From a virus: a stretch of 64,000 nucleotides of DNA. The position numbers and the translations under genes were made by a program. The notes under the pieces are model-generated. The model saw nothing but the letters and a program-made list of their open reading frames with translations, made no database searches and was not told the origin of the DNA. The stretch lies in the IMG/VR virus record IMGVR_UViG_3300020220_000020, positions 30,491-94,490 of that record. One strand, written 5' to 3'. Positions 9,925-42,027 of this stretch are shown one piece after another; the first letter of the stretch is position 1; each line of letters opens with the position of its first letter.

Positions 9925-10821
9925 ATGGAACAAATACTAGATAGCTTAAAAAAAATTATTTATAGATGGCTTAATACTGAAACTGCAATTACCGAAAATC
10001 TGTCATCGGGATCAACTTTAATAAAAGTTGACAGGGCAACCAGATTTATGCCTGGTGATGAAATTGCAATTACTGATGGAACAGAATTTGAATTCCCACT
10101 TGTAATTCATTCAATAATAGATGAAAATAATATTTTGTTAAAAAGTGAAACAAAATTTAGTTGGAGTTCTTCAAATGCGTATGTTAAAAAGACAATAGCT
10201 GGTCAATTAATCCAGGGTATTTATGTTGGTGACGTTAGCTCAATACCTAAATTTCCTGCTGTTTTAATAAATGGCGTAAGTAGGTCTAGCGAATGGACTA
10301 CTCTTGAGAGTACTACAGAAAAATATGAAATTTCTATAACATGTTACGTTGAAGGCGCAACACAGGAGGACGGTTATAGGTCTCTTTTGAGAATGTCAAA
10401 TATTATAGATAGGGGTCTTAAGAGGAACGTATTTCCTGTTGTTGGAGAAATTGGTCCAATCGACGTTATAGATTCTGTTGATATTGGTGATTATTTTATA
10501 AGAGTTGATGATACTGATGGTATGGTTAAAAATCAACTTCTAATTATAGAAGATAAATTCAAAGCTGAGGATGTATCAATAGAAGAAGTAATAGATAGTC
10601 AGACAATTAAATTACACAAAAAAGTATTTAATGATTATCCTCTAATAAATGATCCCAGGGTTTTAATAGTTAGTAGATTTTTATATAATAGCTGGCCGAA
10701 AAATATTAGTTACACTACTGTCCAGAAGGATACACTTCTTAAGGGTGCAACTATAAACTGGAGCGCAGAGGAGATACAGCTTCAGGGTAGAATCGGATGG
10801 GTTGATACTCCTAGGGATTAA
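9925..10821 (+). CDS. probable tail terminator / head-tail joining protein with two beta inserts, 298 aa
   Basis: The core around residues 90-175 (KFPAVLING, EKYEISITCYVEG, a helix ending NIIDRGLKRN) matches the usual pattern of tail terminator or tail completion proteins: a short helix, antiparallel strands and a helix of 'I-x-x-x-L'. It is decorated with two copies of a small beta module. Copy A covers about residues 22-88 (FMPGDEIAITDG, then IIDENNILL). Copy B covers 181-250 (NQLLIIEDKF, then VIDSQTIKL). A similar module sits in the preceding gene. Position after the gp36-like protein and before the tail tube supports a neck role. The start has no strong Shine-Dalgarno site. Confidence 0.6.
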   Translation: MEQILDSLKKIIYRWLNTETAITENLSSGSTLIKVDRATRFMPGDEIAITDGTEFEFPLVIHSIIDENNILLKSETKFSWSSSNAYVKKTIAGQLIQGIYVGDVSSIPKFPAVLINGVSRSSEWTTLESTTEKYEISITCYVEGATQEDGYRSLLRMSNIIDRGLKRNVFPVVGEIGPIDVIDSVDIGDYFIRVDDTDGMVKNQLLIIEDKFKAEDVSIEEVIDSQTIKLHKKVFNDYPLINDPRVLIVSRFLYNSWPKNISYTTVQKDTLLKGATINWSAEEIQLQGRIGWVDTPRD

Positions 10822-10825
10822 TACT

Positions 10826-11923
10826 ATGAAAACATTGGTAATTGGAGAGTGTCCTTGGAGAAAAAATCCATTTGGATACTTGGTTAGAAAACTTGTTCAT
10901 TCTTTAAGTAAGAATTCAGATGTCGTTCTTCTTGCAGAAGGTCATGATGCATCTCTTTTTGGTGATGGTCAAAAAAGCCTGATAAAAAATGAAGATTTTC
11001 ATGAAATAGAAGTAATTGGTATAAATAATGATGTTTCAAAATCTTCTATTATTTTGTATGAAATATATAAAGCTTGGAATTTTGATATTATAATTACCGT
11101 TGGGCATCTTGCTAAATTTGAATGGGTTGATGCTTTTTTTAATTTTTCTCAAAGTGATGCAAGATGGGGAGCTATAGTACCAGAAAATTTTCAAAATAAT
11201 TATGTTATAAGTGAAAATCTGGATTCAATATGTTCTTTTAATGTATCTACAAATTTTAATGAAGTTGACAATTTTAGTATATATCCTGAGCTTATTTGGG
11301 GCGAAGATTTTTCGTATGAAAATTCCATCAGTTCTAACTCTGTTTATAAAATAGGACTAATTGGAGAAAATACAATATTGTCAAATTTTCACATATGTGA
11401 AAGTTTAAAAAAAGATTTTAATTTTACTTATTTTTCATCCGTTAATCAAAGAAGTTATTATTCAGAAGAGCAATTAAAAGGAATGGGAGTGTCAATATAC
11501 CCTGGCTTTAGAATGCATAATTTTTGGGACAATGATAGTGCATTCATAGATTTTGTAAATTCAAATGACGGTTTTATAATTTTAGATGATGTTCCTGATT
11601 TTGGTTATTATTCTTACGTTATATCTAAGACAAATAAGCCATTAATATCCTCCTGTTCAAGGTTAAAATGTGGAATAAAACATGCATATGTTTCTGCCAT
11701 TACTTTGCCATCAAATAACGTTTATCTTGATAAATATCATATATTTAATAATACTTCTGAAATAATTCTTAATTTTGATATAAAATATGTAAAATCTGAG
11801 TCAGAATTTAGTTTAAAAAAAGGGGATTGTATAAATACTGTTGAATTATTTATTGATATGCAGAGTAAATTATTTACAAAAGCTAAAAGGATAAAGGAAT
11901 TAAGGTTGGAAATACATAAATAA
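10826..11923 (+). CDS. glycosyltransferase-like protein (GT-B type), 365 aa
   Basis: The N-terminus MKTLVIGECPWRKNPFGYLV, then a helix and DVVLLAEG, fits the first beta-alpha-beta unit of a GT-B glycosyltransferase. A second Rossmann-like half seems to begin near residue 170 (SVYKIGLIGENTILSNFHIC), with strands GVSIYPGF and GFIILDD. The late segment NKPLISSCSRLKCGI would fit the acceptor/donor cleft. No EX7E motif was found, so a GT1- or GT9-like type is possible, or a non-catalytic relative. ATG 10826 is chosen over an upstream in-frame TTG because AGGG lies at 10813-10816 and the TTG falls inside the preceding gene. It lies between neck and tail genes, an unusual place for such an enzyme. 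Confidence 0.55.
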   Translation: MKTLVIGECPWRKNPFGYLVRKLVHSLSKNSDVVLLAEGHDASLFGDGQKSLIKNEDFHEIEVIGINNDVSKSSIILYEIYKAWNFDIIITVGHLAKFEWVDAFFNFSQSDARWGAIVPENFQNNYVISENLDSICSFNVSTNFNEVDNFSIYPELIWGEDFSYENSISSNSVYKIGLIGENTILSNFHICESLKKDFNFTYFSSVNQRSYYSEEQLKGMGVSIYPGFRMHNFWDNDSAFIDFVNSNDGFIILDDVPDFGYYSYVISKTNKPLISSCSRLKCGIKHAYVSAITLPSNNVYLDKYHIFNNTSEIILNFDIKYVKSESEFSLKKGDCINTVELFIDMQSKLFTKAKRIKELRLEIHK

Positions 11924-13978: not shown

Positions 13979-14362
13979 ATGAAGCTTTTTATTAGTGAAA
14001 ATGATAATATGGATGCAAGTTTGTATGTGGGCTACAAAGATGGTAAGTTATTTGTTTTTGATACAGATCAGGAGGCAAAAACTTTCTTTAATAAAGACAA
14101 ATTCTCAAAAATAGACTTTTCTTTTAAAAAGTTAGATTTTGGTTCTTCTAGAAAGATACAAGAGAAAAGTATAGTTAATAGAGATGGTAATATGACTTTT
14201 GATATACTTTCATTTAGATATGAAAGGCTTATTAGTAGTATTAAATCATGGAGTATTGCAGACGAAAATGGCAATCCTGTGCCAGTAAATAAGGAAAATA
14301 TAGATAAAATGGAGCCTGTTTTGGCAAATGCCATACTAGGTTTATGCGACAAATTAATGTAA
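13979..14362 (+). CDS. tail assembly chaperone-like protein, 127 aa
   Basis: The C-terminal part reads SFRYERLISSIKSWSIADEN, then GNPVPVNKENIDKMEP and a helix with LANAILGLC. This is the familiar 'W-x-l-x-D-x-x-G-x-p-v-p-v-t-x-e-x-i-x-x-L-x-P' pattern of small phage tail assembly proteins encoded before the tape measure. The N-terminal half is beta-rich. The protein should act in the cytoplasm, keeping the tape measure soluble and recruiting tube subunits. Its place between the tube and tape measure genes supports this. Confidence 0.65.
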   Translation: MKLFISENDNMDASLYVGYKDGKLFVFDTDQEAKTFFNKDKFSKIDFSFKKLDFGSSRKIQEKSIVNRDGNMTFDILSFRYERLISSIKSWSIADENGNPVPVNKENIDKMEPVLANAILGLCDKLM

Positions 14363-14371
14363 TTAAGTATT

Positions 14372-14377
14372 AAGGAG
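14372..14377 (+). promoter_or_regulatory. Shine-Dalgarno for TTG-started tape measure gene
   Basis: AAGGAG lies seven bases before TTG 14385 and decides the start. The TTG codon gives the expected N-terminus (M)AEFGEELIKFL. Confidence 0.65.
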
Positions 14378-14384
14378 TTTTACC

Positions 14385-25958: not shown

Positions 25959-28900
25959 ATGGCAGGAAGAACACCTAATTTTGGGCTTGGTTATTTCGAT
26001 TTTAAGGACTCTTTGGATTCCTCTTTGTCTGTTGATCTTGAAGTTGATAGATTTTCTACAATTGATTCTCAGCTTTTTGGACTTTATTCAATATTTGGTA
26101 ATGGCATAGTTGAGGGCCTTATAGTATCCATATCTAGTGATTCTCAAAATCCGTTTTCTTTGAATGTTTCTCCTGGAATTTATTTTATAAATGGTAAATC
26201 AACACAATTAGATTTTGTAAAAAATATTCCTGAAATTTCATCTAATTCTATATTCTATGTGTATGCTGGTTTTACAAGAACATTAAATTCTCCGATAGTC
26301 GCAAGTGTATTTACTAGTAATTTTTCCTCCGTAGAGGGTGCTGTTAGGCTTGCTCAGGTTAAAACTGGCAATAGTACAATTACGTCAATAGATTTATCAT
26401 ATAGGCAAGAAATTAGCTTTAGGCAGCTAATTATAGAAGAAATAGCAAAGCACAAGCACAGAGGGGATCCTGACAAAATAGACCTTCTTAGAGAAGTCAA
26501 GAATTCATTGCCTGGTGCTAGAATTTCTGATTTGGACACTGCAAAAATCAAAAGAGGCGTCTTCAAAAAAGAAAGAATTCCAAAGCTTGATCACAATGAT
26601 CTAATGAATAAGGGATTTATAAATCACGCAGGACTAGAAACTTTTGTTAGAACTATGCCAGATAGGAATAGGCAATTGCTTGGAGAGGTTGCTGCAGTTA
26701 ATTTAATGAGACAAAGTTTTGTTTCAGTGAAAAATGATAGAAGTATTGCTAATGAAATGGTTAATAGTATTATTGTTTCTCCTGGTCATACAGATAATTC
26801 GATAATTGATCTTGAAAATTCTACAGCTGTAATAAATTTTGATAGTGGTTGTATAACAGGTATACCAGAGGAAGTAAATACGATAAGCTCAATAAAGTAT
26901 ACTACTCTTGGTGCCTTACAGTCCTACACTCAAATAAACAATATAACTTTTTCCAGGGGCAGTCCAATACCGCCAGTTGGGTCTGGAGATATATCTCCTC
27001 CTCCTCTTGATGATTCTTCTTCTGAGGTAGAGGCATACATAACTCCAATAAGTTCATCTTCAAACTTTTTTGGAGGTACATCTGGAGATGGCGATGGTTC
27101 TGGTGGTTCTGGTGGCGGAGGTGTAAGATTTAAAGATAGTTTTGAAAATGCTAATTCTGATGGCACTGCATATCCTGGACTATTCGTGGAAACTCAAGCA
27201 ATACCATCATCTACAACTTTTGGAGCTTCTCCAGACAATACTTTAAGAACTGATGGTATTTATTCAGTTAAATTTAGAGGAGGCAAAAAAGAAAAACTTA
27301 TTTTCAAAAGAAGTGTTCTTATTAATAAAAACTGGTCAAATTATGCATCAATAAACATTGATGTTCGTTGCAAATCCGTAGAACATCCTGCAGTGTATTT
27401 TTACTTTTATAATAAAAATGAAGCTGGCCAATTAGAGCAAAGTGATACGTATGTTTTACTTTCTCAAAATGAAATAACTTCAAACGGAAACTCTTCTATG
27501 CAAGATTTTGCAGAAAAAAGTTTTGAAATAGCATCTTCTGATAGAAACAATGTTGACTCTATTGTTTTTGAAGTCGCAGACATAGAAACTGATTTTGTTT
27601 TTAATATAGATGATATATTCGTTAGCGGTTTCTTATCTGGTGGCGGTCCTGATGGTGGTACTACTATTGTAACACAGAGTTACAATAGTGATGGTCTTCT
27701 CATATATAGATATGAATCACCAAATCTTATAAATTTAAATTCTATATCTTTTGATACAGTAGTGCCAGATGGTACTTCTATAGAGTTTAGATGGAGAGCT
27801 GGCAATAATGTTCTTTCTATTGCATCTGAGCAATTTTCTGATCCAGTTTTGTCAGAGCAAAGTATTCTTGCCGTTGGAAGAGTCTTTGATATACAAATAT
27901 CTTTTAAGGCAAAAGAAGATACCGAAAATCAAGATGTTTTTATAGACACTCCCGTCTTAAAGGGATTCACTCTTCAAATATCAAGCTCTGGTGAATTTGC
28001 AGGTTTTAATGTTGCAAAAGTTAATCAGTGGATGAATGGTAAGGGTGATAACGTAAAAATAGAGCCTACTTTATTTGATTTGGGTGATTTGACAATAAAA
28101 ACTCCACTTGAAATTAATAACTTTTTTTATGCAACAGAAAACTCAGTGCAAAAATCATTGCCCAATTTTATGTCATATTTTGGCTATAGTGGAACTAATT
28201 TGCCAATTAGCCCCATTCAAGCTTTAGAAATAGACGCTACTGATGGAAGAGTCGGATTAGATACTCCGACTTCTGCAGTCAGACTTTCAAACAAAAACAT
28301 GATTATATGCGATACCTATAATGATAGAGTAATTGAGATAGATAAATCAGGAAATCTTATTAGGGGTTTTGGGTCTCACAATGTTGCTTCCAGCGCCAGT
28401 AACGTTGGTTTTTTCCCGATGTCTGCAATTTTTAATCCAAGAACAAAAATACTTCAAATAGTATTTAATTCAGATTTTAATGTAGATCCAAATACTTTTG
28501 AATTAAACTCAATTAAACTATATTCAAATAATATTACTTCTAGTCTTTCTGCTCTTGATTCTGTAGAAGCAACTGGTATTACTAAAAAAATATTAAGTAT
28601 AAAGCTTAGTCCTGGAAAAATCGACTTTATAAATAGTACTACTTCTGATGTTTTTGTAAAATTAACACCTGCTGGTTTTGGGCAAACTGGTGGCTTTTCC
28701 AACAATGAGACTTTTAGGAGGCTTTATTCTTTGGATGGTCTTAAGCTTTTTGTTGGAGATTTTACCTATGTTAGCAACATAAGGCATCCTATAAATGCAA
28801 TAAAAAGTTATAATAATAAAATTTGGATTTGCAATTCTAATATTCTTTTTGATAGAATCAGAGCTGGTTTAAGAAATGACAATGATGAATTTTTTGTTGC

Positions 28901-29795
28901 AAGAAATTCTCAGTTAAAATTTAACTTAGTAGTTTCAGTTGATCCTTCTTTGGCTGGTCAAGATTATCAAATCACTTTTATAAATGATCAGTCTGCTGCT
29001 GGTTCTTCTTATCAGCCTGTGTTAATAACAGGACCGATTGTGTATAATGAACAGGTTTCTGTCGCAACTAAATCCAGAACAATAGCAGAAGTTACTACAA
29101 CTCCTACCAATGCAGCTTATGTTATAAATCCAGAAGGAACAACATTTCTTTTTACTTTTAAAATTAAAGTAGAAGTCAGGAATCAACAAACTAATCAATA
29201 TGAAGAGATCGCACAAAGTCCATTTTTTGTACAGAAAAGAATAACAGTTCTTGAAAATGTTCAAGCTGGATCTGACGCTGTTCCGTCCGTGCCTTCTGTA
29301 ATACTATTAAATCCAGAAACAAACCAAATTGATTTTAACTATGGCAATCAGACAAGTTTTACTTTTTCTGATTATACCTTGGGGTCAATACAAGAAATAG
29401 ATAGGGAGTTAATACTCATAGGGGGTTTGCAGAGATTTTCTTCAGATCAATCTCCACCAGTTGAAATAGATGACCCTGATTCTTTTAAGGGTCAGGCTAT
29501 AGAAAAACTTAAAGATTATCGTGGCAGGGTTGGTATATACAATCTTTCAACAAATTCTTTTGTATATAGTTATGATTCGTCTGATGGTGTTTATGTTAGT
29601 GACGTATCTAGAATAAATGGAGGTCAGCTTTCTGGATCTTATTTAATAGTAGAAAGCTCCATAATGTCTAATGGCGGTAGAGTTATAGTTATAGATCCAT
29701 TTAACAATATTATAAGAGAAATAAACACCGGAGAATATACGATAATAAATGATGCAAGGCTGCTTGCTAATGGCAATTTCTTGCTCAGTACATGA
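25959..29795 (+). CDS. tail-tip / fibre-base protein with adaptor N-terminus and propeller-like region, 1278 aa
   Basis: Residues 1-100 form an adaptor-like module (PNFGLGYF, then VDRFSTIDSQLFGL, GNGIVEGLIVSIS and a 'V-S-P-G-x-x-F-I-N-G' strand). A related module starts the 1,859-aa protein encoded at 54816. Next come KHKHRGDPDKIDLLREV (about residues 162-178) and RIPKLDHNDLMN followed by NHAGLETFVRT, a pattern seen at fibre attachment regions with H-x-H motifs. A Gly/Ser-rich linker (about 372-388) leads to a jelly-roll-like carbohydrate-binding type segment (400-550). An NHL-like propeller blade (MIICDTYNDRVIEIDKSGNL, near residue 780) and further beta domains follow. Its stop overlaps the glycosyltransferase start by ATGA. 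Confidence 0.65.
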   Translation: MAGRTPNFGLGYFDFKDSLDSSLSVDLEVDRFSTIDSQLFGLYSIFGNGIVEGLIVSISSDSQNPFSLNVSPGIYFINGKSTQLDFVKNIPEISSNSIFYVYAGFTRTLNSPIVASVFTSNFSSVEGAVRLAQVKTGNSTITSIDLSYRQEISFRQLIIEEIAKHKHRGDPDKIDLLREVKNSLPGARISDLDTAKIKRGVFKKERIPKLDHNDLMNKGFINHAGLETFVRTMPDRNRQLLGEVAAVNLMRQSFVSVKNDRSIANEMVNSIIVSPGHTDNSIIDLENSTAVINFDSGCITGIPEEVNTISSIKYTTLGALQSYTQINNITFSRGSPIPPVGSGDISPPPLDDSSSEVEAYITPISSSSNFFGGTSGDGDGSGGSGGGGVRFKDSFENANSDGTAYPGLFVETQAIPSSTTFGASPDNTLRTDGIYSVKFRGGKKEKLIFKRSVLINKNWSNYASINIDVRCKSVEHPAVYFYFYNKNEAGQLEQSDTYVLLSQNEITSNGNSSMQDFAEKSFEIASSDRNNVDSIVFEVADIETDFVFNIDDIFVSGFLSGGGPDGGTTIVTQSYNSDGLLIYRYESPNLINLNSISFDTVVPDGTSIEFRWRAGNNVLSIASEQFSDPVLSEQSILAVGRVFDIQISFKAKEDTENQDVFIDTPVLKGFTLQISSSGEFAGFNVAKVNQWMNGKGDNVKIEPTLFDLGDLTIKTPLEINNFFYATENSVQKSLPNFMSYFGYSGTNLPISPIQALEIDATDGRVGLDTPTSAVRLSNKNMIICDTYNDRVIEIDKSGNLIRGFGSHNVASSASNVGFFPMSAIFNPRTKILQIVFNSDFNVDPNTFELNSIKLYSNNITSSLSALDSVEATGITKKILSIKLSPGKIDFINSTTSDVFVKLTPAGFGQTGGFSNNETFRRLYSLDGLKLFVGDFTYVSNIRHPINAIKSYNNKIWICNSNILFDRIRAGLRNDNDEFFVARNSQLKFNLVVSVDPSLAGQDYQITFINDQSAAGSSYQPVLITGPIVYNEQVSVATKSRTIAEVTTTPTNAAYVINPEGTTFLFTFKIKVEVRNQQTNQYEEIAQSPFFVQKRITVLENVQAGSDAVPSVPSVILLNPETNQIDFNYGNQTSFTFSDYTLGSIQEIDRELILIGGLQRFSSDQSPPVEIDDPDSFKGQAIEKLKDYRGRVGIYNLSTNSFVYSYDSSDGVYVSDVSRINGGQLSGSYLIVESSIMSNGGRVIVIDPFNNIIREINTGEYTIINDARLLANGNFLLST

Positions 29796-30871
29796 AAACA
29801 AATCTAGATATTATATATTCTTGTTTCTTAACTAATTCTGGTTACACTCGAGCATCTTTGGGTTACATAAGATCTCTTGGATTACTTGGCAATAATGTTT
29901 ATATAAATTGTGTACATAAATATCCTCAGGGTAATTCTTTTACAAAAGATGAATTGTTTATTATAAACAAAACTTGTAGTATAGGCAAAATGGAGGGAGA
30001 TGTTCTTATAGAACACGTAATCCCCAACAGATGGAGAAAATTATTAAATGGTACCAGAAGGTATTGCGTGGCTGTATTTGAGAACGAAAAAGTAGATGAT
30101 TTTTGGGTTGAATCTATAAACAGAGTTATGCATGGAGTAATATATCCCTGCAGTTGGAATAAAAAAATATTTGAAAATTGTGGTGTTAATAAGCCTGGTT
30201 TTGTAGTACCTCATTTTTTAGATGAACTTGTTTGGAAAAAACAAATTATTACAGATTCTTTTTTTAACAAATTTTCTTTTTGTGCTATTGCGACTTGGAG
30301 AGAAAGAAAAAATTGGTCTACTTTATTTAAATCCTTTGAATTATTAAAAAATAAGCATGATTTTGTTTTAGGTATAAAAACAGATAAGTATTTTGAGCTT
30401 ATTAATTATGTAAAAGAAAATCATCCAAGTATATTTTCCAATATTATTTTAGAGACTAATGAACTTGACGACCACGGTATGGTAAAAATGATGTCTAAAT
30501 TTGACGTTATAGTGAATTTTTCTTTAGGAGAGGCATTTTGTATGCCTCTACTTCAGGGTTTATTCCTTGGTAAGCCATTTATTTCTACTGACATAGAGGG
30601 AGTGAAAGATTTTGCATCGCCCGAATATGGGGTTTTTATACCTTCTAATGGAGATTTAAGAAAAGACAGACTTGATAGCTATGGTCAGTTTAGAAATAAA
30701 ATTTGGCCATATTTTGATCCAGAGTCTTCTTGCAGGGCATTATTAGAAATAATTGAAAAATATAATTACTATAAATCAAATATAGAGAAAGATCAAGATA
30801 GGTTTTTTAAAAAATTTGGTTTAAACAATAGTATAAGTAACAATTACTGGGACCCGGTTTTTAATACATGA
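29792..30871 (+). CDS. GT4-type glycosyltransferase, 359 aa
   Basis: A GT-B enzyme. The C-terminal half shows the donor-site pattern SLGEAFCMPLLQGLFLGKP followed by FIST (about residues 244-265). This is the EX7E region of GT4 enzymes, with Glu247 present and the second Glu replaced by Gln255. The inter-domain strand FCAIATWRERKNWSTLFKSF (163-182) matches the usual 'vgr-x-x-x-x-K-n-x-x-x-l-i-x-a' element. The N-terminal half (SCFLTNSGYTRASLGYIRSL) has the Gly-rich first loop. No signal peptide, so it acts in the cytoplasm. It overlaps the 3,719-aa Ser-rich gene by ATGA, hinting that this protein is a substrate (inference). Confidence 0.8.
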   Translation: MKTNLDIIYSCFLTNSGYTRASLGYIRSLGLLGNNVYINCVHKYPQGNSFTKDELFIINKTCSIGKMEGDVLIEHVIPNRWRKLLNGTRRYCVAVFENEKVDDFWVESINRVMHGVIYPCSWNKKIFENCGVNKPGFVVPHFLDELVWKKQIITDSFFNKFSFCAIATWRERKNWSTLFKSFELLKNKHDFVLGIKTDKYFELINYVKENHPSIFSNIILETNELDDHGMVKMMSKFDVIVNFSLGEAFCMPLLQGLFLGKPFISTDIEGVKDFASPEYGVFIPSNGDLRKDRLDSYGQFRNKIWPYFDPESSCRALLEIIEKYNYYKSNIEKDQDRFFKKFGLNNSISNNYWDPVFNT

Positions 30872-33800
30872 TAAAAGCACAATTTGTCCTTAAAAATTAT
30901 TCCATAAAAAATGATTCAATTCATTTAAGTTTTGAATTGAATGATTGTATTATTGACGGGAATTATTCTGTTTCTTTTGAAGATGCTGAATCTAGTGAAT
31001 CAATAAATTTTGTTGATTTTGATGGCAATAAAAAAAATATTGTTAATTTATTAAGAAATCAAAATGCTTTTCAGGGTACCATTCTTTATCCCATATCAAA
31101 AATGGGCAAAAAGAGTAATATAACATTATTCTGTAAAATACTATCAGATAGTGGACAAAGCTTAGTTCTTGGTTCGAATATTGATGTAGTTAAAAATTCA
31201 TCAAAAAATAGATCTATATATCTTGATCCTCCATTTGTTCAAGATCATTCAAATATAAATATTTATGCAGATGGTATTCCTGATGGCAATGCTATTATAG
31301 AAATAGCAAATAAAAAATTTAAATCTAAAGTTTCTAATGGTCAATTAAATTTTAATATTGATACTAGAACAATTCTTAAAGATAGTGACTTCTATGGTAA
31401 GACTTTAAGAAAAATGCCATTAGAAGTAAAAATTGGTGCTAATAATTTTTATGGTGAACTTGGTGTTGTCCCTAAAAGTCTTAGATCACTACAGGCAACA
31501 AATGATCCTCAAAGACCAGAGTGTGTAATAATCGATACTAGACCTGCTCAGGATCAAAGTTTTAAGTTTGAACCTATAAGCTTAGACTGTTTTCAGGAGC
31601 CAATAATAGGTCCTCTATATCAGACTGATACACAAAAATTTTCTCCTCAACTGACATCTCTTGATTCTAATTTTAAAAATTGTCATCAGGGTTTTATATC
31701 TGATTCTTCAACTCTTCTTTCTGCAATAAAAATAATTGGTACTCACGCTTCTTCAAACGTAGACAAAGAAATAGTTGATTCTGGTTTTGATTTTTACACT
31801 GTGGCCTCTGTTATTGTTTCTGATGATTCGGTACCAGTTGATGTCGCTTCTACAGTTCCAGTAGTTAAATTAGTTAAGCATCATAGCTCTACAAATTTTG
31901 ATTTAACTTTTAAATTAAGAGGCGTTATAGAAAAGCCTTATTTTTATTATCATTCTATTTATGTACCTAATAATTCTACTTTAGCGGCAACAGATAGGGG
32001 TAGCGTAGTTTTTAGGTTTCCTAATGGCAACGAGATAGCTAAAAACTTTGTATTCGGCTCTACTGATATATATTCAGTGCTAAACAAGATTAAAAATTTG
32101 ATTGAAACTGATGCAGCTCTTATAAAAAATGAAATAGTTTCTGAAATAATAAATACTGGATCTAGACAGGAATTGATAGTAAAATCAAATTTAGAATTTT
32201 CTATATACAAGGGTCAGGTTTCGTCTGAATCTAATTCTAATAAAATACAAGTTGAGCTTAATACGAATAGGGCCCTGAGGTTATTCGTTACTGACTGCGC
32301 AGACAGAGATGTTTTGCAGTCTATATCCAAAGTTGTATTTAATACCGAGCCTTTTAAGGGCGCTATAGCGAATGTCATATCTGCTGATTCAAATTATATA
32401 TCAATTGATTTCAACCCTGGATTTAATAAGCCTAATGGTTTCTTTATTTCTGACACTACATATTGCGTAGAGTTTTTTGGGGTAAAATCTACAGAAAGAA
32501 ATCTTGTTCCTGAAACTTTGACATTTAACAGGATGATTTCCAAAGATGGCAGCTACATACCGACTATAAATCCTGTTGTTTCTCAAAATGGTAGAGTTTT
32601 TTGTCAGGCTGAGATAAACGGCAAATATCAAATATTTATTGATAATTATCCCAATTGGACACAGATTACTTTTGATGGGGAGAATAGAAATCCTCATGTT
32701 ATAAGTGATAAAAATGGAAACATTCATTTGTTTTTTGAGAGTGACAGAACCGGTGAGTCTCAAATATATTATTCATGCATAGGATATGGAAGCTTCCAGT
32801 ATAATGATTCTGCTCTAAATAGTTTTAGTGTAGAGCTTTCAAAAGTTTCCGAAACAGATAAATATTTCACAAGAATTGCAAAAGACATTAGGCCATTTTT
32901 TATTCTTAATGAAAGTTTTGGTATTGAAATTTTTCCTTCCGGTATTCTTTCTATAAACTCTCCTCAGCTAATACAAAATTTATATTCAGTATATTGTTTA
33001 AATGAGTTTTCCGGTCTAAGTCCAGACAATTTTCAAATAAATTATCCAGAGGGTGTTATTGCTGGTCTATCTAGTATTGTTACAATAGGCCTTGGTCAGC
33101 AAATATCAGTTCAAACTATTGTTGTATCTAAGGGTATCTCAAATCAGGGTGCAACATCTTTTGATGTTGATTTTTCTGCAAGTTTTAACGGAAAGATAAA
33201 AGCAGTTATTTATAATATAGATGATTCTATTTCTGGTCAAAATAAATTTAAGGTATTTGGTAGATCTGATTTTGTAAATTACAATCAGGATGGTCTTGGT
33301 TTTGATATCCCGAGTATGAATGATATTGCTTTTGAGGTTGTAAATAATGACTCTTCTAATACTTCAAAAATTAATATAGCAGGAACATTTGAGGGATTAT
33401 CAAGCGATATAGATATATTTATAATTAAGGTAATATTGGAAAATGTTGGTAGTGAAAATACTGCTACCTCTGCAAATTTAGTTGCCAGTCAAAACTCCTT
33501 AGGCAATCAAATATCCAATACAAATTGCATAGTTGCAGTTAACCCAAGTGAAGATTTTGGTGCTTTTAGATACCCTGTATATAGAGATACAAATGATACT
33601 TTGTTTGATGGGATTTATAGTAGTCTAAATTTGGGATACGAGTTTAATTTTTCTCTTATTGGCAACTCATCTTCAAATGGATATAATATATCTGGTTTTG
33701 AAGAGTTTACCCAGATAAGTTTTTCTCTGTCTAATTTCTTTTCTTCTCCATCTTCATTTGATGATTTTGTTTTTGGTACTAAGCTTTTAAGTAGGTCTTT

Positions 33801-36800
33801 TGGTACTTTTAAAGTAAATCCCAAAAATGTTGATTACTTAAATTCTGAAATATCTCCAGTTTTTGAATTTTCAGGTAAGAAAAAGTTTGTTTCTGGATAT
33901 TCAGTTGGCGACGGATTAAGATCTTACGGTATTTTAATAAATTGTAAAAACATAGATCAGTCAAGTGGTTTAGTAGTGCAGGGAACAATAGAATTCGACG
34001 AACCAATAGTAGACATAATTTTTGATAAACAAGAAATTGAAACTTTTGAGCAAGATGGTTTTTACGGAGAGACCATAGACCAAGATTACAATTATGATAA
34101 TTCTTGTCTTGTAAAAGTTGTATTTTCGGAAGATAAAAAATCTATAAGGATCCTTGCCAAGTTTAGTGAAAACCCATGTTTCTTTGTTGTTAAAATTGGA
34201 GATATAGATGCAAAAAGCAAATTCCTCATAAAAACAAATAATCAAATATCCGATATCGAAAATTATTTTAAATCTAAATTTAATATAGGTTCAGATTTTA
34301 AAGGAACATTTAATAACAACAGGCTTTACTACATATCATCAGATTTTAGTTTTAATAGTTTCTTGCCAGTTTTTGGCAATTTACGTTTTGATGATGATTT
34401 ATTAAATCCAAATTCTCTTCTTGAGTATTCTAGTTTTAATGCTGGTTTTTCTTCTCCCTTAAATGATGTTTCTGGTATTTATAGGCTAGAAGACTATAAT
34501 CATTCGGGTAGCAATATAGTATACGAAGTTATAAAAAATTTAAATATAGATGCACCTAAATCGGATCTTTATGAATTTTCTTTATTTTTGATATTTGAAA
34601 AGAAAACAGTTTTAGTAAGAAATCAAGAGACATTAGAAGATTACTGCTACAGAGTTGGAGGTGCATTGCCAGGTTCAAGTAGCAGTAGCAGTATAGGCAG
34701 CATCAGTAGTAGTAGCAGCAGTAGTAGTAGTTCTTTTGTTCCTCTTCCATGCATTGATGGTAATTCACCAGGTGGCTGTATGGATTTAGATGGAGATGGA
34801 TTTATTGGCGGAGGCGATTTGGGCGTTTTGCTTGGTAATTGGAATAATCCCGGAAATGGTGATTTGGATGGTGATGGCGCAGTAGGCGGTAGTGATCTTG
34901 GAATTCTTCTTGGTAATTGGGGTAGATGTGTTGAGTGTCAGTCTTCATCTTCCTCATCTGGGGACATTTCTTCTTCAAGTTCTAGTAGTAGCGGGACTGG
35001 TCCAGGTACCTTATGTTCTTTTATAGAGGTTGAGGCTGGTGAAAAGATCACTGGAGCCATAAAAAGTGATGGTACGCTTGTTATATGGGGAGATGTGAAT
35101 AGTGAAGTTATAACTTCTTTGCCGTCTTCTCTTCCTCAAATAACTAAAATTTCATTTGGAACTGCCCAAAGTAATGCTCATGCGGTGGCAATTTCATCTG
35201 ATGGTTCAGCATTATGCTGGGGAAATAATTCACAAGGAGAATGCAACGTACCAGGTGATCTAGGAAATGTTATTTCTGTTTCTGCTGGTGCAAATCATAC
35301 TTGTGCTGTAAAAGAAAATGGCGATGTTGTTTGTTGGGGCTTTAATAATTCTGGTCAAACAAATGTTCCATCCGGTCTTAGTGGCGTTTCTAAAATTCAC
35401 TCTCATGCTTCTCATAATATTGCCCTTAAAACAGATGGTACTGTATCTTGCTGGGGTTCTAATTTGCATGGTCAATGCAATGTTCCATCTGGTCTCGATG
35501 ATGTAATAGAAATTTCCACTGGTAGTGGCCATTGCGTTGCGCTTAAGCGAGATGGAACTGTTGTTTGTTGGGGTTTAAATTCAAGTGGTCAGTGCAACGT
35601 TCCCTCTTTTGATGGATTGTCTGCAATCGCTATATCTGCTGGCGGTAGCTTTACCTCTGCTGTCCTGTTAGACGGAACAGTTGTTTCTTGGGGTATGAAC
35701 ACTTTTGGTCAAACTGATGTTCCATCTGGAATGGGATTTGTTATTAAAATAGAATCAGGAGATGATCATACTGTAGTTCTTTTTTCTAATAATACGGTTT
35801 CTTGCTGGGGCAGGAATGATAAAAATCAATGTGATGTTCCAGATTCATGCTTGACTCAAACTGAAATATCTAGATCTCTATCTATTAATCAATGTGATTC
35901 TTACATTGAGGGCCATGCAGAAAATGTATATTCTGGAAGATACAAAATAGGGATTATAACAAGATCAAAGTCTTTGCCAACATTGTCTAGGGATTTGTAT
36001 CCAGGTGGAACAGAGCTTCACATTTTTGATAAAATTTTTGAAAACAAAGGTTCAAATAGGATATCTATAGATGTTAATTACAGAAAGCTTGTTATTGAAG
36101 AAATGGAGCACTTGCTTTCAATAAGTAGTAAGGAAATTTTCTTCACAAATCCATTAAAAGAAATCGACGAAAAGTATCCAAGGTTTATAAGAAATATAAG
36201 AGTTTTTTCTGACGGAGATATAGCTGGCTCCGTAACAAGATTTGCTAATATAGAGGATAAAAGAAGACAATTTGACGCCTTCTTCGGTTCTTGCTCTAGA
36301 AGTCAAGATATACCATCTTATCTTGGCGTTCATATGATGAACGAGAATATAATTTTGGAACAGTCAAATATAAGAATAGGTAAACTTTCATATAAGCCTA
36401 ATTCCAATATTACTCTTGATCCAAGGATATATGATTTTGAGAATATGCAATCTGTTGGGCTTTTGGAAACCCTGTCAAGAAATGAAAGTTTTGAATTTAC
36501 AACTGAAGATCCCGGTGATTTTTACAATGTTTCTGAAATGTCTAGTTCTGTAGATGAGTGGTTTTCAGATAGATCTGGCTTTACTCATGTGGGTTCATAT
36601 CTTGACGGTAAGCACGGCAGTAAATCAATAATTCTTCAGGACAACATTGATAGTATATCATCTGCAAATCCTGTTTTGCAAAATGACTCATATCATGCAA
36701 AGACATATTCTGAAATAAGAAACTATCAATTATCTTCTGGTTATAATGGTAAAATTTCACAAAATCTTGGTAGATCTGATTCAAGTGATTATACTTTCTT

Positions 36801-39800
36801 GGTTGATGCTGCAGTTATAGCGCCAAATCAGTTTATTAAAACGTATAGAACAATTGGACTTTTGAATGATGGAGTTATAAAATTTAATAACGTCTATTCT
36901 AAAAAATCAACATTTGATCAAAACAATAAGACTCTACAGTATGATACTTTAAAATTTTATTTTGAATCATCTTCTGCTCAAGATTATAGTCTTTTTAATC
37001 TTTCTTACCCGGCTAAGGCTGTACTGGACTCTGGAAATGAATATTTAGTGTATATAGACAACAATCATATCGCTAGATTTGTAAATTATCGCATGTCTAT
37101 ACCCCCAGATATCCAATTAAGAAAAGTTGCTGGTGCTACTCTCACCGTACCTAGCAGTGACACAGGCACAACTTTCACCTTTCCTAGCAGTAGCAGTAGC
37201 AGTAGTAGTAGTAGTGATTCTTCTAGTAGTAGTAGTGATTCTTCTAGTAGTAGTAGTGAATCTAGCAGTAGTAGTAGTGAATCTAGCAGTAGTAGTAGTG
37301 AATCTAGCAGTAGTAGTAGTGAATCTAGCAGTAGTAGTAGTGAATCTAGCAGTAGTAGTAGTGAATCTAGCAGTAGTAGCAGTGGTTCCAGCAGTAGTAG
37401 CCAGTCAAGTAGTAGCAGTCAGTCCAGCAGTTCTAGCAACTCCAGCAGTAGTAGCCAGTCAAGTAGTAGCAGTCAGTCCAGCAGTAGCAGCCAGTCCAGT
37501 AGTAGTAGTCAGTCAAGTAGTAGCAGTCAGTCCAGCAGTAGCAGCGGTTCCAGCAGCAGCAGCAGCGGTTCCAGCAGCAGCAGCGATTCCAGCAGTAGCA
37601 GTGGTTCCAGCAGCAGCAGCAGCGGTTCCAGCAGCAGCAGCGGTTCCAGCAGTAGCAGCGGTTCCAGCAGCAGCAGCGGTTCCAGCAGTAGCAGCGGTTC
37701 CAGCAGCAGCAGCGGTTCCAGCAGTAGCAGCAGCGGTTCCAGCAGCAGCAGCGATTCCAGCAGCAGCAGCGATTCCAGCAGTAGTAGCAGTTCCAGCAGT
37801 TCTAGTAGTTATTTTGAAGATATGCCTTTTGGAAATACGAAAGTTTTGATGGTTGCTTCTGGTATCGGTTTTGTAGTCGCTATTGACGAAAATTATAAAT
37901 TAATAGGAAACTATGATCCTGGTCTTGCTAGTGCACAAATTCAGTCTGACATTAATACTATTAATGCATTGTATACAAGTGATGACGATGCAATATACGC
38001 AGAATACGTATCTGCTGGATCTGATTTCTTTGCAATTAAAACATTAAATGGATACTGCGAGGTTTATGGAAATACTTATTCTTCCTCTCTACTTCCACCT
38101 TCTGGACTTAAAATCATAACATTTTCTTGTGGAGGTGATTTTATAGTTGCGATTAGTAGTACCGGTTCATTGGAAGCTTGGGGAAATGATAGCAATATAA
38201 ATAACAATGTCCCATCTGGTTTGTTTACGTCAGTTTCTTGTGGGTCTTCTCACGCATTAGCTATAGACGTTGATGGTTCTGTGTATGCATGGGGCGACAA
38301 CTCTTTTAACCAATCTAATGTTCCATCAGGATTAAAAGCCGTTGAAATTTCTGCTGGTTCAAAGTTCTCATTTGCAATAGATTCTGAATTTAAAGTTGTT
38401 TATTGGGGAGAAATTGATTTTCAGTATAATTCTGGGACCATACCTACCTTTGCTTGTTCTGTTTGGTGCAGAAACGATACTGTTTTAATAGGCGGATTTG
38501 CAAATGAATGGAACCTTTTTACCGATATTTCTACGCACAAATATGAATCGTTTTTGTATTATTTGATAGAGCATCCTATTAGATATAGAAGTAATTCTGA
38601 TATATGGGCTCCTGGTCCAGTTATAGATCTTTTTAGGCTTTATGATTCTAATGCATCAGTTGAGACAAATCTTAATAGATATTGTAGGTTGTTAGGATAC
38701 AAAGACAATATTTGTTCTAGTGATTTTAAGATAAATGATCCATTAGTGCTATCGCAAATACCTGTTTCTGTTTCTGCAAACTCTTTATCAAAGAATATAG
38801 ATGCAAAAAGATTTGAAGAGGATAGAATAGGGCTATGCTATCAGTCAAATATAAAAAATTATAGATCGGACATATATTATAGGGGCTACCTAAACCATTT
38901 TTCTATATTTGGAAAAAATTATTATCTTTCAAAAGATATTCAAAATCAAATATCTTCTTTCGAACCTTCAATTGGAAATGACTACTATGGAAATTCTATA
39001 GTAGCATGGAGATCTCAAGATTCTACAGCTTCAAAAGAAAACAATTACATATACTCTTCTTTTATATATAATGGATCTTCTGACATTAACAAATGCCTTC
39101 TTGATGAAATGCTTTATAAGTTAAAAGATTTCTTTATTTACGATCCATACGATCCATATTCATTTAAAATATTGCCGCAAGTTTGTGAGGTTGAATTTAC
39201 TTTTAAGGCACCAGCTTCTAATACATTTAATTTCTTTGTAGATTTTTATTATGACGATGAATTTAAGAATAAGGCTTATTCTTATTCCTCTTCTGTAGAT
39301 CCTTCTATTTGGTCTGTTGATGGAGTAAATGCATATGCTGATGGCCATTATGCTCAAGCTGGTGATGAATTACTTGTAAGATTCCATGCTTCTGATATTG
39401 AAGAATTGTCAAATAAAGTTTTATTTGTTAAAATAGGTTTTAATTCTCAGTCTTCATCACTCAAACATGGCCTTGTCTCTCAAAATAATAATGAAATTAA
39501 GGACCCACTTGCTGTTTCATCAGATATATCTGGAAATAATCCAAATTTAAATTCAAACTCTAAGATTTGGGTAATGCCAGAAATTATATCTTCTGATATA
39601 AATTTGCCAAAACAGGAATTTATAAATTACAAGTCAGAAGATGGCATACTGAGATTTAATTTTTATGATAATAGCAGGTCGTCATTAGATGGCATTTCAA
39701 TAGGAGAAACAGCTAAATCTTTTTATGTCCATATACAAAGAGGTAGTGGGAACTCTGAATTCTCAGATTTTGTTTTACGTTTTGGTGGCACTGTATCCTA

Positions 39801-42027
39801 TGTTGGTTTTACCAAAGAAGATTTAGATATATCTTCTTCTTACTCAATTGGTGAAGGTGTTGCATATCCTCAATCAAATTCATCAGTTTCTAATGGACTG
39901 GTAGATGGAGAATTTATATCTATAGATTCTTCAGGAAGAAAAATAATGTTTAGGTTAAAAACAAAACAAAATGGTCTCAGATCTTTAAGAGTCGTAATTA
40001 AGGAGAATAAATTTATTTCCGGCAATTTTAATTCTGTATTTTTATGCAACTCAAAAGAATCAGCAGAATGTATTACTCAAATTCCTTTTATAAATAAAAC
40101 TTCAAATTCTTCTTTATTTAAAATTAAAATGGATATTTATTCAGACGAGGATTGCCTAAATTACGTTGGATCTTTTGATTCAAGTGTAAACGTAAATTGC
40201 TTTACAAATGGGATAATGGGATATTATCAGTGTCCTTCTAAAAATATTATATACGTTAACTTTATTCCTCCCGTTATGGAATACATAAATATGTCTGGTT
40301 TTGAACTATCAAATAGTAGCATAGTTTCAATTGAAAAAGCTGATCTAATTTCAGAAAACATATCTAGAAAGTATTTACAGCCAGACATAAAATATCATTT
40401 TAAGGCTTATGCGGTTTTTGACAGTGGAGAATCTACGTTTGTCACAAAATCTAATTTTAAATGTGAGAGTAATTCAAAGAGATCTTTAGAATATACTTCT
40501 CCAGTTCTTGTTTCTTCTGGTAAAAATGTATTGAACAATAATTTGGAAATATGCTCTCTTGCTGGAGGAGAGTCGGTACTATCATGGTCTGACACAAGAT
40601 TTAATAAGCAGAGAGGAACAAGTCTATCTTTCTCTTCTAGTCAATTTAGTTGCATGTTTGCGACCGTTGATATGTCAAATAGATTTGTAAATTCTTCTTC
40701 TCAGGGTGGATATGATAGACATTTTAAATTTGTTTCTGGAGACACAGAACAAACATTTATATCAGAGTATAAATTTATTGCAGACAATTTGGGTAATTTC
40801 TCTTCAATAGGTAGAACGGGTGAAAAAATATTATCTTCTCATATGGCACTTGGAACACAAAGAACGCCAAGGGCATTTGTGCCAATATATAATGAGGGTA
40901 ATGGTAGAACATTTTTTGATCAAACAAATAAATTTGAAACAATAACAAATTATGATGAATTTAGAAGAATAAGGGTAGTTAAAGATTTCGTTGATTATTT
41001 TTCTACAATTTCTGAGGACATAATATATCCAGTAGTTTCTGACTGTTTTGTGCATCTTGATGTTATAGGTGTTCCTGGAACGCAAGCTGTAAGAATAAAA
41101 AATGAAAATGATCAAGATTTCTCTTCATGGCTTCACATACAGGAACCTAATTCTGTTTATATTCAAAATAAATCTCAGCCAGAAAAAGATTTTATATCGG
41201 AATTTTCTCCTTTCTTTTTAGAAAGAGAAAGATTTGTTGTTCCATGGGTTTTAAGCTCTGGAAATGGCATCAAAAAAGTATGCATACAGATACTAACGGC
41301 ATTTGGTGTAACTAATACATTCTGTATAGATATAGTTGTAAATTATAAAAAATTAGATTACGAAGTAGAATTTTATTATGGGGTTGATGATGCGCCTAGT
41401 TCTTCTAGCTCCTCTAGTTCTTCTGGTGGCTTTAGAATACCTTCCTCTTTCTATAGAAGATATCCTGTCTTGAATAATAAAACCATATACGATCCAGAAA
41501 CAGGAACAAGAATTTTTGAAAATGACTTAAGATCATTGAACATAAATGAAACATATGATATATCAAAAATAATAGCAGTCATTACTTTTAAAGACAAAAA
41601 TAGAGTCGAAAGAATAAATAATCTTATGAGATATCCATTCTTCTCATCTAGGTCAAATAATCAGGTAATTGGCGCTAAATTGTATCAGCAGGGTATAGAG
41701 ATAATAGATGTTCCGCTAACTAAAATATCTGATGGTGTTTATGAAGGAGAATTCCAAATAAAACAAAGTGATGGAATTGCTTATAACGATGGTTTGGCAT
41801 CTTTGCAGATTACTATTCCTGGTGAGTGTTTTATGCCAAACATATTTGATTTATTTTCTGAATTTAGGCAGTATAGATCTGCAAACTTGAATACAGAAAT
41901 TAAAGTAGTTAATTATGCTAGCTATATACTTGATTTCTATAACAAAGATGATATTAAAAACAGTTTTGGTTCATCTGGTTATTATTCTGGAACTTTTAAT
42001 TTTTTGAAAAATAATTCTGAAAGATGA
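30868..42027 (+). CDS. giant Ser-rich mosaic appendage protein (RCC1, dockerin-like, poly-Ser), 3719 aa
   Basis: Order of parts: beta-rich N-terminus (1-550); a TolB-like strand pair (ITFDGENRNPHVIS, then HLFFESDRTGESQIYY) near residue 600; beta domains to 1265; a Ser linker; a dockerin-like double calcium loop (about 1295-1357); a second Ser linker; a seven-repeat RCC1 propeller (about 1382-1662); an unrecognised part; a 208-residue poly-Ser tract (2107-2314); a second, degenerate RCC1 cluster (about 2324-2541); then beta domains, including two related modules near 39228 and 40111; and a last Ser linker (41398-41424). There is no signal peptide, LPXTG or membrane anchor, as expected for a virion fibre. 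Binding partner and assembly state are unknown. The multi-domain adhesin plan is clear. Confidence 0.85.
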   Translation: MIKAQFVLKNYSIKNDSIHLSFELNDCIIDGNYSVSFEDAESSESINFVDFDGNKKNIVNLLRNQNAFQGTILYPISKMGKKSNITLFCKILSDSGQSLVLGSNIDVVKNSSKNRSIYLDPPFVQDHSNINIYADGIPDGNAIIEIANKKFKSKVSNGQLNFNIDTRTILKDSDFYGKTLRKMPLEVKIGANNFYGELGVVPKSLRSLQATNDPQRPECVIIDTRPAQDQSFKFEPISLDCFQEPIIGPLYQTDTQKFSPQLTSLDSNFKNCHQGFISDSSTLLSAIKIIGTHASSNVDKEIVDSGFDFYTVASVIVSDDSVPVDVASTVPVVKLVKHHSSTNFDLTFKLRGVIEKPYFYYHSIYVPNNSTLAATDRGSVVFRFPNGNEIAKNFVFGSTDIYSVLNKIKNLIETDAALIKNEIVSEIINTGSRQELIVKSNLEFSIYKGQVSSESNSNKIQVELNTNRALRLFVTDCADRDVLQSISKVVFNTEPFKGAIANVISADSNYISIDFNPGFNKPNGFFISDTTYCVEFFGVKSTERNLVPETLTFNRMISKDGSYIPTINPVVSQNGRVFCQAEINGKYQIFIDNYPNWTQITFDGENRNPHVISDKNGNIHLFFESDRTGESQIYYSCIGYGSFQYNDSALNSFSVELSKVSETDKYFTRIAKDIRPFFILNESFGIEIFPSGILSINSPQLIQNLYSVYCLNEFSGLSPDNFQINYPEGVIAGLSSIVTIGLGQQISVQTIVVSKGISNQGATSFDVDFSASFNGKIKAVIYNIDDSISGQNKFKVFGRSDFVNYNQDGLGFDIPSMNDIAFEVVNNDSSNTSKINIAGTFEGLSSDIDIFIIKVILENVGSENTATSANLVASQNSLGNQISNTNCIVAVNPSEDFGAFRYPVYRDTNDTLFDGIYSSLNLGYEFNFSLIGNSSSNGYNISGFEEFTQISFSLSNFFSSPSSFDDFVFGTKLLSRSFGTFKVNPKNVDYLNSEISPVFEFSGKKKFVSGYSVGDGLRSYGILINCKNIDQSSGLVVQGTIEFDEPIVDIIFDKQEIETFEQDGFYGETIDQDYNYDNSCLVKVVFSEDKKSIRILAKFSENPCFFVVKIGDIDAKSKFLIKTNNQISDIENYFKSKFNIGSDFKGTFNNNRLYYISSDFSFNSFLPVFGNLRFDDDLLNPNSLLEYSSFNAGFSSPLNDVSGIYRLEDYNHSGSNIVYEVIKNLNIDAPKSDLYEFSLFLIFEKKTVLVRNQETLEDYCYRVGGALPGSSSSSSIGSISSSSSSSSSSFVPLPCIDGNSPGGCMDLDGDGFIGGGDLGVLLGNWNNPGNGDLDGDGAVGGSDLGILLGNWGRCVECQSSSSSSGDISSSSSSSSGTGPGTLCSFIEVEAGEKITGAIKSDGTLVIWGDVNSEVITSLPSSLPQITKISFGTAQSNAHAVAISSDGSALCWGNNSQGECNVPGDLGNVISVSAGANHTCAVKENGDVVCWGFNNSGQTNVPSGLSGVSKIHSHASHNIALKTDGTVSCWGSNLHGQCNVPSGLDDVIEISTGSGHCVALKRDGTVVCWGLNSSGQCNVPSFDGLSAIAISAGGSFTSAVLLDGTVVSWGMNTFGQTDVPSGMGFVIKIESGDDHTVVLFSNNTVSCWGRNDKNQCDVPDSCLTQTEISRSLSINQCDSYIEGHAENVYSGRYKIGIITRSKSLPTLSRDLYPGGTELHIFDKIFENKGSNRISIDVNYRKLVIEEMEHLLSISSKEIFFTNPLKEIDEKYPRFIRNIRVFSDGDIAGSVTRFANIEDKRRQFDAFFGSCSRSQDIPSYLGVHMMNENIILEQSNIRIGKLSYKPNSNITLDPRIYDFENMQSVGLLETLSRNESFEFTTEDPGDFYNVSEMSSSVDEWFSDRSGFTHVGSYLDGKHGSKSIILQDNIDSISSANPVLQNDSYHAKTYSEIRNYQLSSGYNGKISQNLGRSDSSDYTFLVDAAVIAPNQFIKTYRTIGLLNDGVIKFNNVYSKKSTFDQNNKTLQYDTLKFYFESSSAQDYSLFNLSYPAKAVLDSGNEYLVYIDNNHIARFVNYRMSIPPDIQLRKVAGATLTVPSSDTGTTFTFPSSSSSSSSSSDSSSSSSDSSSSSSESSSSSSESSSSSSESSSSSSESSSSSSESSSSSSESSSSSSGSSSSSQSSSSSQSSSSSNSSSSSQSSSSSQSSSSSQSSSSSQSSSSSQSSSSSGSSSSSSGSSSSSDSSSSSGSSSSSSGSSSSSGSSSSSGSSSSSGSSSSSGSSSSSGSSSSSSGSSSSSDSSSSSDSSSSSSSSSSSSYFEDMPFGNTKVLMVASGIGFVVAIDENYKLIGNYDPGLASAQIQSDINTINALYTSDDDAIYAEYVSAGSDFFAIKTLNGYCEVYGNTYSSSLLPPSGLKIITFSCGGDFIVAISSTGSLEAWGNDSNINNNVPSGLFTSVSCGSSHALAIDVDGSVYAWGDNSFNQSNVPSGLKAVEISAGSKFSFAIDSEFKVVYWGEIDFQYNSGTIPTFACSVWCRNDTVLIGGFANEWNLFTDISTHKYESFLYYLIEHPIRYRSNSDIWAPGPVIDLFRLYDSNASVETNLNRYCRLLGYKDNICSSDFKINDPLVLSQIPVSVSANSLSKNIDAKRFEEDRIGLCYQSNIKNYRSDIYYRGYLNHFSIFGKNYYLSKDIQNQISSFEPSIGNDYYGNSIVAWRSQDSTASKENNYIYSSFIYNGSSDINKCLLDEMLYKLKDFFIYDPYDPYSFKILPQVCEVEFTFKAPASNTFNFFVDFYYDDEFKNKAYSYSSSVDPSIWSVDGVNAYADGHYAQAGDELLVRFHASDIEELSNKVLFVKIGFNSQSSSLKHGLVSQNNNEIKDPLAVSSDISGNNPNLNSNSKIWVMPEIISSDINLPKQEFINYKSEDGILRFNFYDNSRSSLDGISIGETAKSFYVHIQRGSGNSEFSDFVLRFGGTVSYVGFTKEDLDISSSYSIGEGVAYPQSNSSVSNGLVDGEFISIDSSGRKIMFRLKTKQNGLRSLRVVIKENKFISGNFNSVFLCNSKESAECITQIPFINKTSNSSLFKIKMDIYSDEDCLNYVGSFDSSVNVNCFTNGIMGYYQCPSKNIIYVNFIPPVMEYINMSGFELSNSSIVSIEKADLISENISRKYLQPDIKYHFKAYAVFDSGESTFVTKSNFKCESNSKRSLEYTSPVLVSSGKNVLNNNLEICSLAGGESVLSWSDTRFNKQRGTSLSFSSSQFSCMFATVDMSNRFVNSSSQGGYDRHFKFVSGDTEQTFISEYKFIADNLGNFSSIGRTGEKILSSHMALGTQRTPRAFVPIYNEGNGRTFFDQTNKFETITNYDEFRRIRVVKDFVDYFSTISEDIIYPVVSDCFVHLDVIGVPGTQAVRIKNENDQDFSSWLHIQEPNSVYIQNKSQPEKDFISEFSPFFLERERFVVPWVLSSGNGIKKVCIQILTAFGVTNTFCIDIVVNYKKLDYEVEFYYGVDDAPSSSSSSSSSGGFRIPSSFYRRYPVLNNKTIYDPETGTRIFENDLRSLNINETYDISKIIAVITFKDKNRVERINNLMRYPFFSSRSNNQVIGAKLYQQGIEIIDVPLTKISDGVYEGEFQIKQSDGIAYNDGLASLQITIPGECFMPNIFDLFSEFRQYRSANLNTEIKVVNYASYILDFYNKDDIKNSFGSSGYYSGTFNFLKNNSER
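34675..34734 (+). repeat. Ser linker before dockerin-like region
   Basis: About 20 codons that are nearly all Ser (AGT/AGC), broken only by Ile and Gly. The tract separates upstream beta domains from the Cys-bounded dockerin-like segment. Confidence 0.85.
34750..34938 (+). other. dockerin-like double calcium-binding loop region
   Basis: Within the giant protein, two copies of D-x-D-G-D-G followed by DLG-x-LLGNW occur about 26 residues apart (MDLDGDGFIGGGDLGVLLGN and GDLDGDGAVGGSDLGILLGN). They are bounded by Cys residues and poly-Ser linkers. In dockerin type I repeats such loops bind calcium. Cohesin partners are not seen in this window. Confidence 0.75.
34942..34992 (+). repeat. Ser linker between dockerin-like and RCC1 regions
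   Basis: Two runs of Ser codons separated by Gly-Asp-Ile, using mixed TCT/TCA/AGT codons. Confidence 0.85.
35011..35853 (+). repeat. RCC1-type seven-repeat beta-propeller region
   Basis: Seven repeats of about 40 residues each have a core strand such as VVCWGFNNSGQTNVPSGL, ALCWGNNSQGECNVPG and VSCWGSNLHGQCNVPSGL, with 'h-x-A-L-K-x-D-G-T-V' between cores. Seven is the blade number of the RCC1 propeller. Four to five blades carry Cys before Trp, which is uncommon. Confidence 0.85.
37186..37809 (+). repeat. 208-residue poly-Ser tract with periodic D/E/Q/N/G spacers
   Basis: An uninterrupted run of Ser codons with one other residue every seven residues at first (D, then six E; a 21-base unit) and mainly every six later (Q, N, then G or D; an 18-base unit). 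The first part uses mostly AGT, later parts AGC and TCC, so the DNA consists of diverged short tandem repeats. All unit lengths are multiples of three, so expansion or contraction keeps the reading frame. GC content is clearly above that of the flanks. Confidence 0.97.
37837..38490 (+). repeat. second, degenerate RCC1-like cluster
   Basis: About five weaker repeats, including EAWGNDSNINNNVPSGL and YAWGDNSFNQSNVPSGLK. They follow the poly-Ser tract and lack the Cys of the first cluster. They could form an incomplete propeller, or complete one with flanking strands. Confidence 0.7.
41398..41424 (+). repeat. C-terminal Ser linker of giant protein
   Basis: Nine consecutive Ser codons (AGT, TCT, AGC and TCC mixed), followed by Gly-Gly, separate the last beta domain from the preceding part. 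Confidence 0.85.

Follow-up and report, generated by a model that had tools for sequence, protein, structure and literature searches.

Virion self-glycosylation by phage-coded glycosyltransferases (GTs) has been reported for the mycobacteriophages Che8, Corndog and Myrna (PMC12363180, citing Freeman 2023), and both phage self-glycosylation and GT-rich large phages are already known (PMC12619734). In the GtfA/GtfB systems of Ser-rich repeat adhesins, GtfB is a GT-like protein that serves as a chaperone (PMC6973325). The locus described here couples a GT gene, GT3, to the gene of a giant protein, GIANT, downstream of a conserved tail-module gene, UP, thus presenting a concrete candidate enzyme-acceptor pair. 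The open-licence papers found do not describe a GT gene that stays next to the gene of a single giant tail-module protein across phage G-like phages.

Source and affiliation of the window

The analysed stretch of 64,000 nucleotides (hereafter the window) corresponds to positions 30491-94490 of a 94,490-bp IMG/VR virus record. The major capsid protein of this phage is 50% identical to gp27 of Bacillus phage G and 58-87% identical to its homologues at 77 loci, all on viral contigs from metagenomes, of which some exceed 490 kb. This homology, both to phage G and to large contigs, indicates that the record is most likely a megaphage fragment from a phage G relative, and the homologous major capsid protein places it among the phage G-like megaphages (Donellivirus relatives). 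The clade of relatives was reached with the capsid protein as query. Searches with the window's own GT3, GIANT N-terminus or tail tube protein retrieved one weak match or none, and the GIANT of one relative had no match among 50,697 phage records. Neither GT3 nor UP has a detectable counterpart in phage G, which leaves no cultured model at hand for the GT3-GIANT pair. A search for host signals revealed a 12,957-bp contig (L260) of a metagenome-assembled genome (MAG) binned as Patescibacteria that carries UP-GT3-GIANT; this may reflect mis-binning or be a hint at the host, and is no proof of it.

Close to the head genes, the window encodes a subtilase-family protease (1129-1977; PF00082, 4e-12; PHROG 3677, 9e-27). 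Pfam gave no significant family for the proteins occupying the slot of window 395-1126. In the relative L003, positions 17269-19548 encode a portal-like protein with a C-terminal domain that resembles, by eye, DUF559/VSR-type endonucleases.

Organisation of the UP-GT3-GIANT locus

The three genes are arranged as follows.

25959..29795, plus strand: UP, 1,278-aa conserved tail-module protein (30-36% identity to relatives over most of its length)
29792..30871, plus strand: GT3, 359-aa GT4-type glycosyltransferase of GT-B fold (E247-x7-Q255; invariant R172, K173, K196 and D198)
30868..42027, plus strand: GIANT, 3,719-aa virion-type protein (conserved chassis at aa 5-1265 and 1670-3707; Ser, dockerin-like and RCC1 insertions)

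GT3 overlaps both of its neighbours by ATGA, the end of UP at its 5' side and the start of GIANT at its 3' side. An earlier sequence-only reading of this DNA had described a GT4-type gene overlapping the start of a giant ORF in this manner, and the ORF coordinates proved exact. UP and GIANT are the neighbours of GT3 in the window, where a GtfB-like gene was not found. The context of the tail module, with a tail tube gene (PF18906) upstream and synteny across the clade, suggests that GIANT is a virion protein.

The window also encodes a Volactin-type actin homologue at 8135-9187 (PF25216, 3e-57), and many relatives have Volactin-like ORFs displaying the motif GxDPGTMFFQVAE in their tail modules. 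It is puzzling that a phage structural module should count an actin-fold protein among its core genes.

GT3 belongs to the GT4-type enzymes

Profile searches with GT3 matched PF00534 (7e-7), PF13692 and the PHROG 2170 glycosyltransferase family (1e-19), and its homologues in all nine relatives searched match GT group 1 profiles (PF00534 and PF13692 are above cut-off in the window GT3). The AlphaFold2 model of GT3 (pLDDT 82) displays a GT-B fold, with GT4 enzymes leading the fold matches. Both the GT group 1 profile and the fold thus place GT3 among the GT4-type (GT-B, retaining) enzymes. By sequence profile, no solved structure is closer to GT3 than that of the chlorovirus glycosyltransferase B736L (PDB 3OY2; 2e-21), which is also a good match to the fold of the model (TM 0.75 by query).

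A search of viral folds returned the DNA alpha-GT of cyanophage S-TIM5 at rank 49. Since DNA glucosylation is a common role of phage GTs (PMC12619734), GT3 could be imagined to glycosylate the phage DNA at a hypermodified base. This role appears highly improbable, however, as the fold and profile matches are mostly GT4 enzymes whose targets are small molecules, glycans or viral acceptors that are not known, and as GT3 lies inside a tail/adhesin operon, where it is present jointly with GIANT.

The EX7E motif of the GT3 family retains an invariant first Glu (15 of 15 members), while the second position is occupied by Gln in 14 members and by His in one. The replacement of the second Glu means that the activity or the sugar donor of GT3 may be unusual. 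E247, together with R172, K173, K196 and D198, is unchanged in all 15 members. The dN/dS ratio of GT3 is ~0.10 in three pairs, a rough estimate in the two of them where dS is near or above 2, and by these estimates the gene is under strong purifying selection. The EX7Q variant found across the family, the close gene coupling, which would suit a chaperone, and the precedent of GtfB would all fit a catalytically idle GT-fold protein that helps GIANT to assemble as a chaperone or serves it as a structural factor. We consider such a role rather improbable, because the invariant first Glu and the four other invariant residues are those expected for donor binding and the low dN/dS also speaks against it. 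GT3 is instead predicted to be an active enzyme.

GT3 and GIANT are conserved as a pair

The UP-GT3-GIANT arrangement, or an equivalent neighbourhood, was identified in 20 lineages besides the window, 21 with it (L160/L237, G003/G023, G002, G008, G018, G022, G024/G025, G026, G010, L161, L163, L165, L166, L167, L247, L252, L256, L257, G041 (L194) and the MAG contig L260). GIANT is complete in 14 of these 20 lineages, sometimes as two ORFs, and truncated, frame-broken, divergent or reordered in the remainder. The frames of GT3 and GIANT overlap by 4-86 nt at 16 of the 17 loci measured besides the window. In L166 (1216-11679), GT3 is found between two giant-like ORFs, which reveals that the neighbourhood has been kept while the order has not. 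UP, GT3 and GIANT of L194 are split into many frames, through either sequencing errors or decay.

Two relatives, L245 and L246, possess UP and lack both GIANT beside it and GT3. Their contigs stop 2.5-4.5 kb past UP, and thus the joint absence is a local one, seen on fragments. Pairwise identities of GT3, GIANT and UP across the lineages correlate (r 0.94-0.98), and GT3 behaves in these comparisons as a vertically inherited core gene rather than as cargo. PHROG 2170 is classed as a moron family, though in the clade of the window its member behaves like a core gene.

The latter observations bear on the possibility that GT3 acts on a host surface glycan, in receptor masking or superinfection exclusion, and is located in the structural operon incidentally. 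Many GT clusters of jumbo phages are thought to build or modify surface polysaccharides (PMC7824862), and the structural neighbours of GT3 include generic GT4 enzymes that take part in polysaccharide synthesis. Nevertheless, strict pairing with one structural gene, a kept overlap and vertical inheritance would be unusual for host-modifying cargo, as would the structural context of GT3 and the core-like conduct of a family filed among morons. We therefore regard a host target as unlikely.

The Ser tracts of GIANT, a probable lineage-specific addition

The Ser tracts and neighbouring insertions of GIANT, all located on the plus strand, are listed below.

34657..34758, plus strand: Ser tract 1, aa 1264-1297
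34765..34923, plus strand: dockerin-like double EF-hand-type repeat, aa ~1300-1352 (sub-threshold Dockerin_1 match, PF00404, E 0.07)
34924..35010, plus strand: Ser tract 2, aa 1353-1381
35008..35847, plus strand: RCC1-type beta-propeller repeats, aa ~1381-1660 (RCC1_2, 9e-64; WD40_RLD, 7e-54)
37186..37809, plus strand: Ser tract 3, aa 2107-2314, 208 residues (21-bp/18-bp tandem repeats, AGC/AGT codons)
37885..38502, plus strand, limits approximate: second RCC1-like stretch (RCC1 match at aa 2469-2482)
41389..41457, plus strand: Ser tract 4, aa 3508-3530

The sequence-only reading had counted at least four Ser tracts in the 3,719-aa ORF, one of 208 residues; four were found, the longest comprising exactly 208. 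The densest 50 residues of GIANT contain 44 Ser, against a maximum of 23 in 1,000 shuffles of the protein. Profile comparison revealed that aa 1266-1669, which hold Ser tracts 1 and 2, the dockerin-like part and the RCC1 repeats, constitute an insertion in the conserved chassis. The two giants of relatives that were scanned display DUF642 in both cases, and also Laminin_B in one, instead of insertions of the window type. AlphaFold modelled the GIANT N-terminus poorly (pLDDT 61), and this model was left out of the analysis. The DNA of the 208-residue tract has 51% GC and mainly AGC/AGT codons, while the remainder of the gene has ~31% GC and encodes Ser mostly as TCT/TCA. Its tandem repeats and deviating codons and GC content point to local repeat expansion.

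Ser tracts in relatives were scored per ORF, a search for poly-TCN patterns being noisy owing to out-of-frame and antisense matches. The giants of the 20 other lineages contain no poly-Ser tract, with a maximum of 16 Ser in 50 residues. At the loci analysed, Ser-tract proteins encoded outside the window were never seen to adjoin a GT3-family gene and lie at least 7.8 kb away where the distance is measurable. L245 encodes a 1,074-aa Ser-tract fibre (14044-17268) shortly after UP, with neither GT3 nor GIANT. In L137 (8914-14530), distant from GT3, three ORFs with dense Ser tracts were observed (maximum 46 Ser in 50 residues), one of which is 58% Ser overall.

These data address the proposal, made from the sequence of the window, that GT3 O-glycosylates the poly-Ser tract in the way GtfA acts on Ser-rich repeat adhesins. 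In the window GT3 does adjoin a gene with a 208-residue Ser tract, offering many potential O-glycosylation sites, and its fold is of GT4 type. The co-occurrence of enzyme and Ser fibre in relatives, suggested as a check, spoke against the proposal, since GT3 stays with GIANT in 20 lineages where the Ser tract is missing, other Ser-tract proteins lie far from GT3-family genes and the fibre of L245 follows UP without GT3. The GtfA-like mechanism fared no better. GT3 of the window does not match the GtfA model TIGR02918, Pfam finds only GT domains, and no DUF1975, in the 359-aa GT3 and its relatives, and GtfA itself (PDB 4PQG) was retrieved at E 0.012 (rank 56), versus 2e-21 for B736L. Lacking a match to the GtfA model, DUF1975 and a GtfB gene, GT3 finds a weak guide in the GtfA analogy, and the tempting link to the Ser-rich repeat adhesin systems is hereby corrected. 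The Ser tract as the dedicated substrate of GT3 is improbable. As judged from the sequences compared, the presence of GT3 tracks GIANT rather than the Ser tract, which appears to be a late, local and lineage-specific add-on; the reason for which GT3 is kept would lie elsewhere.

A proposed role for GT3

We propose, at about even confidence, that in phage G-like megaphages GT3 is a core enzyme dedicated to the tail/adhesin module, most likely glycosylating GIANT or a neighbouring virion protein. The old, conserved pairing suggests that part of the virion is probably coated with sugars by the phages themselves. The idea that the phage decorates its own virion, advanced earlier for this DNA, is thus backed in its general form by the clade-wide co-conservation and the local joint absence, by the vertical inheritance and purifying selection of GT3 and by the recurrence of paralogous or similar GT genes behind the capsid gene and ahead of the tail-tube gene, and is set aside in its Ser-tract/GtfA part. 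Gene adjacency alone does not fix the identity of the acceptor, and GIANT is here the putative one.

GT3 would be produced together with GIANT, whose start codon overlaps the GT3 stop, presumably late in infection. Most likely, a sugar would be moved from a host nucleotide-sugar onto GIANT or an adjacent virion protein before the particle is completed. The modified sites would be on the conserved chassis or its variable carbohydrate-binding modules, the Ser tract being no specific target. This tract would represent a lineage-specific linker, grown by tandem repeat expansion alongside the dockerin-like and RCC1 insertions, and may be glycosylated in passing. Glycosylation of this kind might serve protection, masking, stiffness or receptor binding.

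Other glycosyltransferase genes of the structural module

Two further GT-like genes upstream had been noted from the sequence. One is clear, although it lies just outside the window: GT1, a paralogue of GT3, is located at positions 28997-30358 of the record, shortly after the capsid gene. GT1 recurs after the capsid gene at 20 of the 77 capsid loci, while 30 more loci are long enough and have none there. The other, GT2, is weak and identified by synteny.

10802..11923, plus strand: GT2, divergent GT-like gene (in a slot conserved ahead of the tail tube gene)

The window copy of GT2 has no Pfam match of its own and scores E 1e-4 against a profile built from its syntenic relatives; six of the eight sequences in the syntenic alignment match PF00534. 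In several relatives a GT2 gene occupies this slot ahead of the tail tube gene. In L003 (3816-5597), two methyltransferase-like ORFs, recognised by eye and without Pfam support, are found next to a GT-like gene (PHROG 1574/34859) and are possible glycan-tailoring genes.

A broader and more tentative reading, which we think doubtful, is that the phage G-like megaphages possess a built-in programme of virion glycosylation, with GTs tied to the capsid, tail-tube and giant-adhesin genes and a sugar coat as a core component. The inheritance of each GT vertically within the structural module would then make the sugar coat a core part of the virion and not acquired cargo.

Comparison with known systems

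Similar to GT3, the GtfA/GtfB systems comprise a cytosolic GT-B-fold GT encoded beside a large adhesin, but the window has no DUF1975, GtfB or accessory Sec genes, and its clade can do without the Ser tract. Chlorovirus B736L/A546L (PDB 3OY2) is, like GT3, a viral GT-B enzyme whose acceptor is not known (PMC9614988), although it belongs to a eukaryotic virus. The gp28 gene of Arthrobacter phage KellEzio is also a GT gene within a structural operon, located between the tail terminator and tape measure genes; it differs in its neighbour and in its much smaller genome, and its product is distant in sequence (23% identity over part of it). The moraphages, large aquatic phages of a lineage other than that of the window, have four putative GT groups among their core gene families, and the accessible text of PMC12619734 does not describe a coupling of a GT to a giant adhesin gene in them. 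Searches with two members of the GT3 group returned no mycobacteriophage GT among the matches. In Che8, Corndog and Myrna, as proposed for the window, phage GTs modify the phage's own structural proteins (PMC12363180); their reported substrates there are capsid and tail-tube proteins, whereas GT3 is coupled to a giant adhesin-like gene, the product of which is its putative substrate. Sugar-bearing virions are known from a few mycobacteriophages, and a GT3-GIANT system kept throughout a clade of uncultured megaphages would, if true, place protein glycosylation among the core traits of some very large phages.
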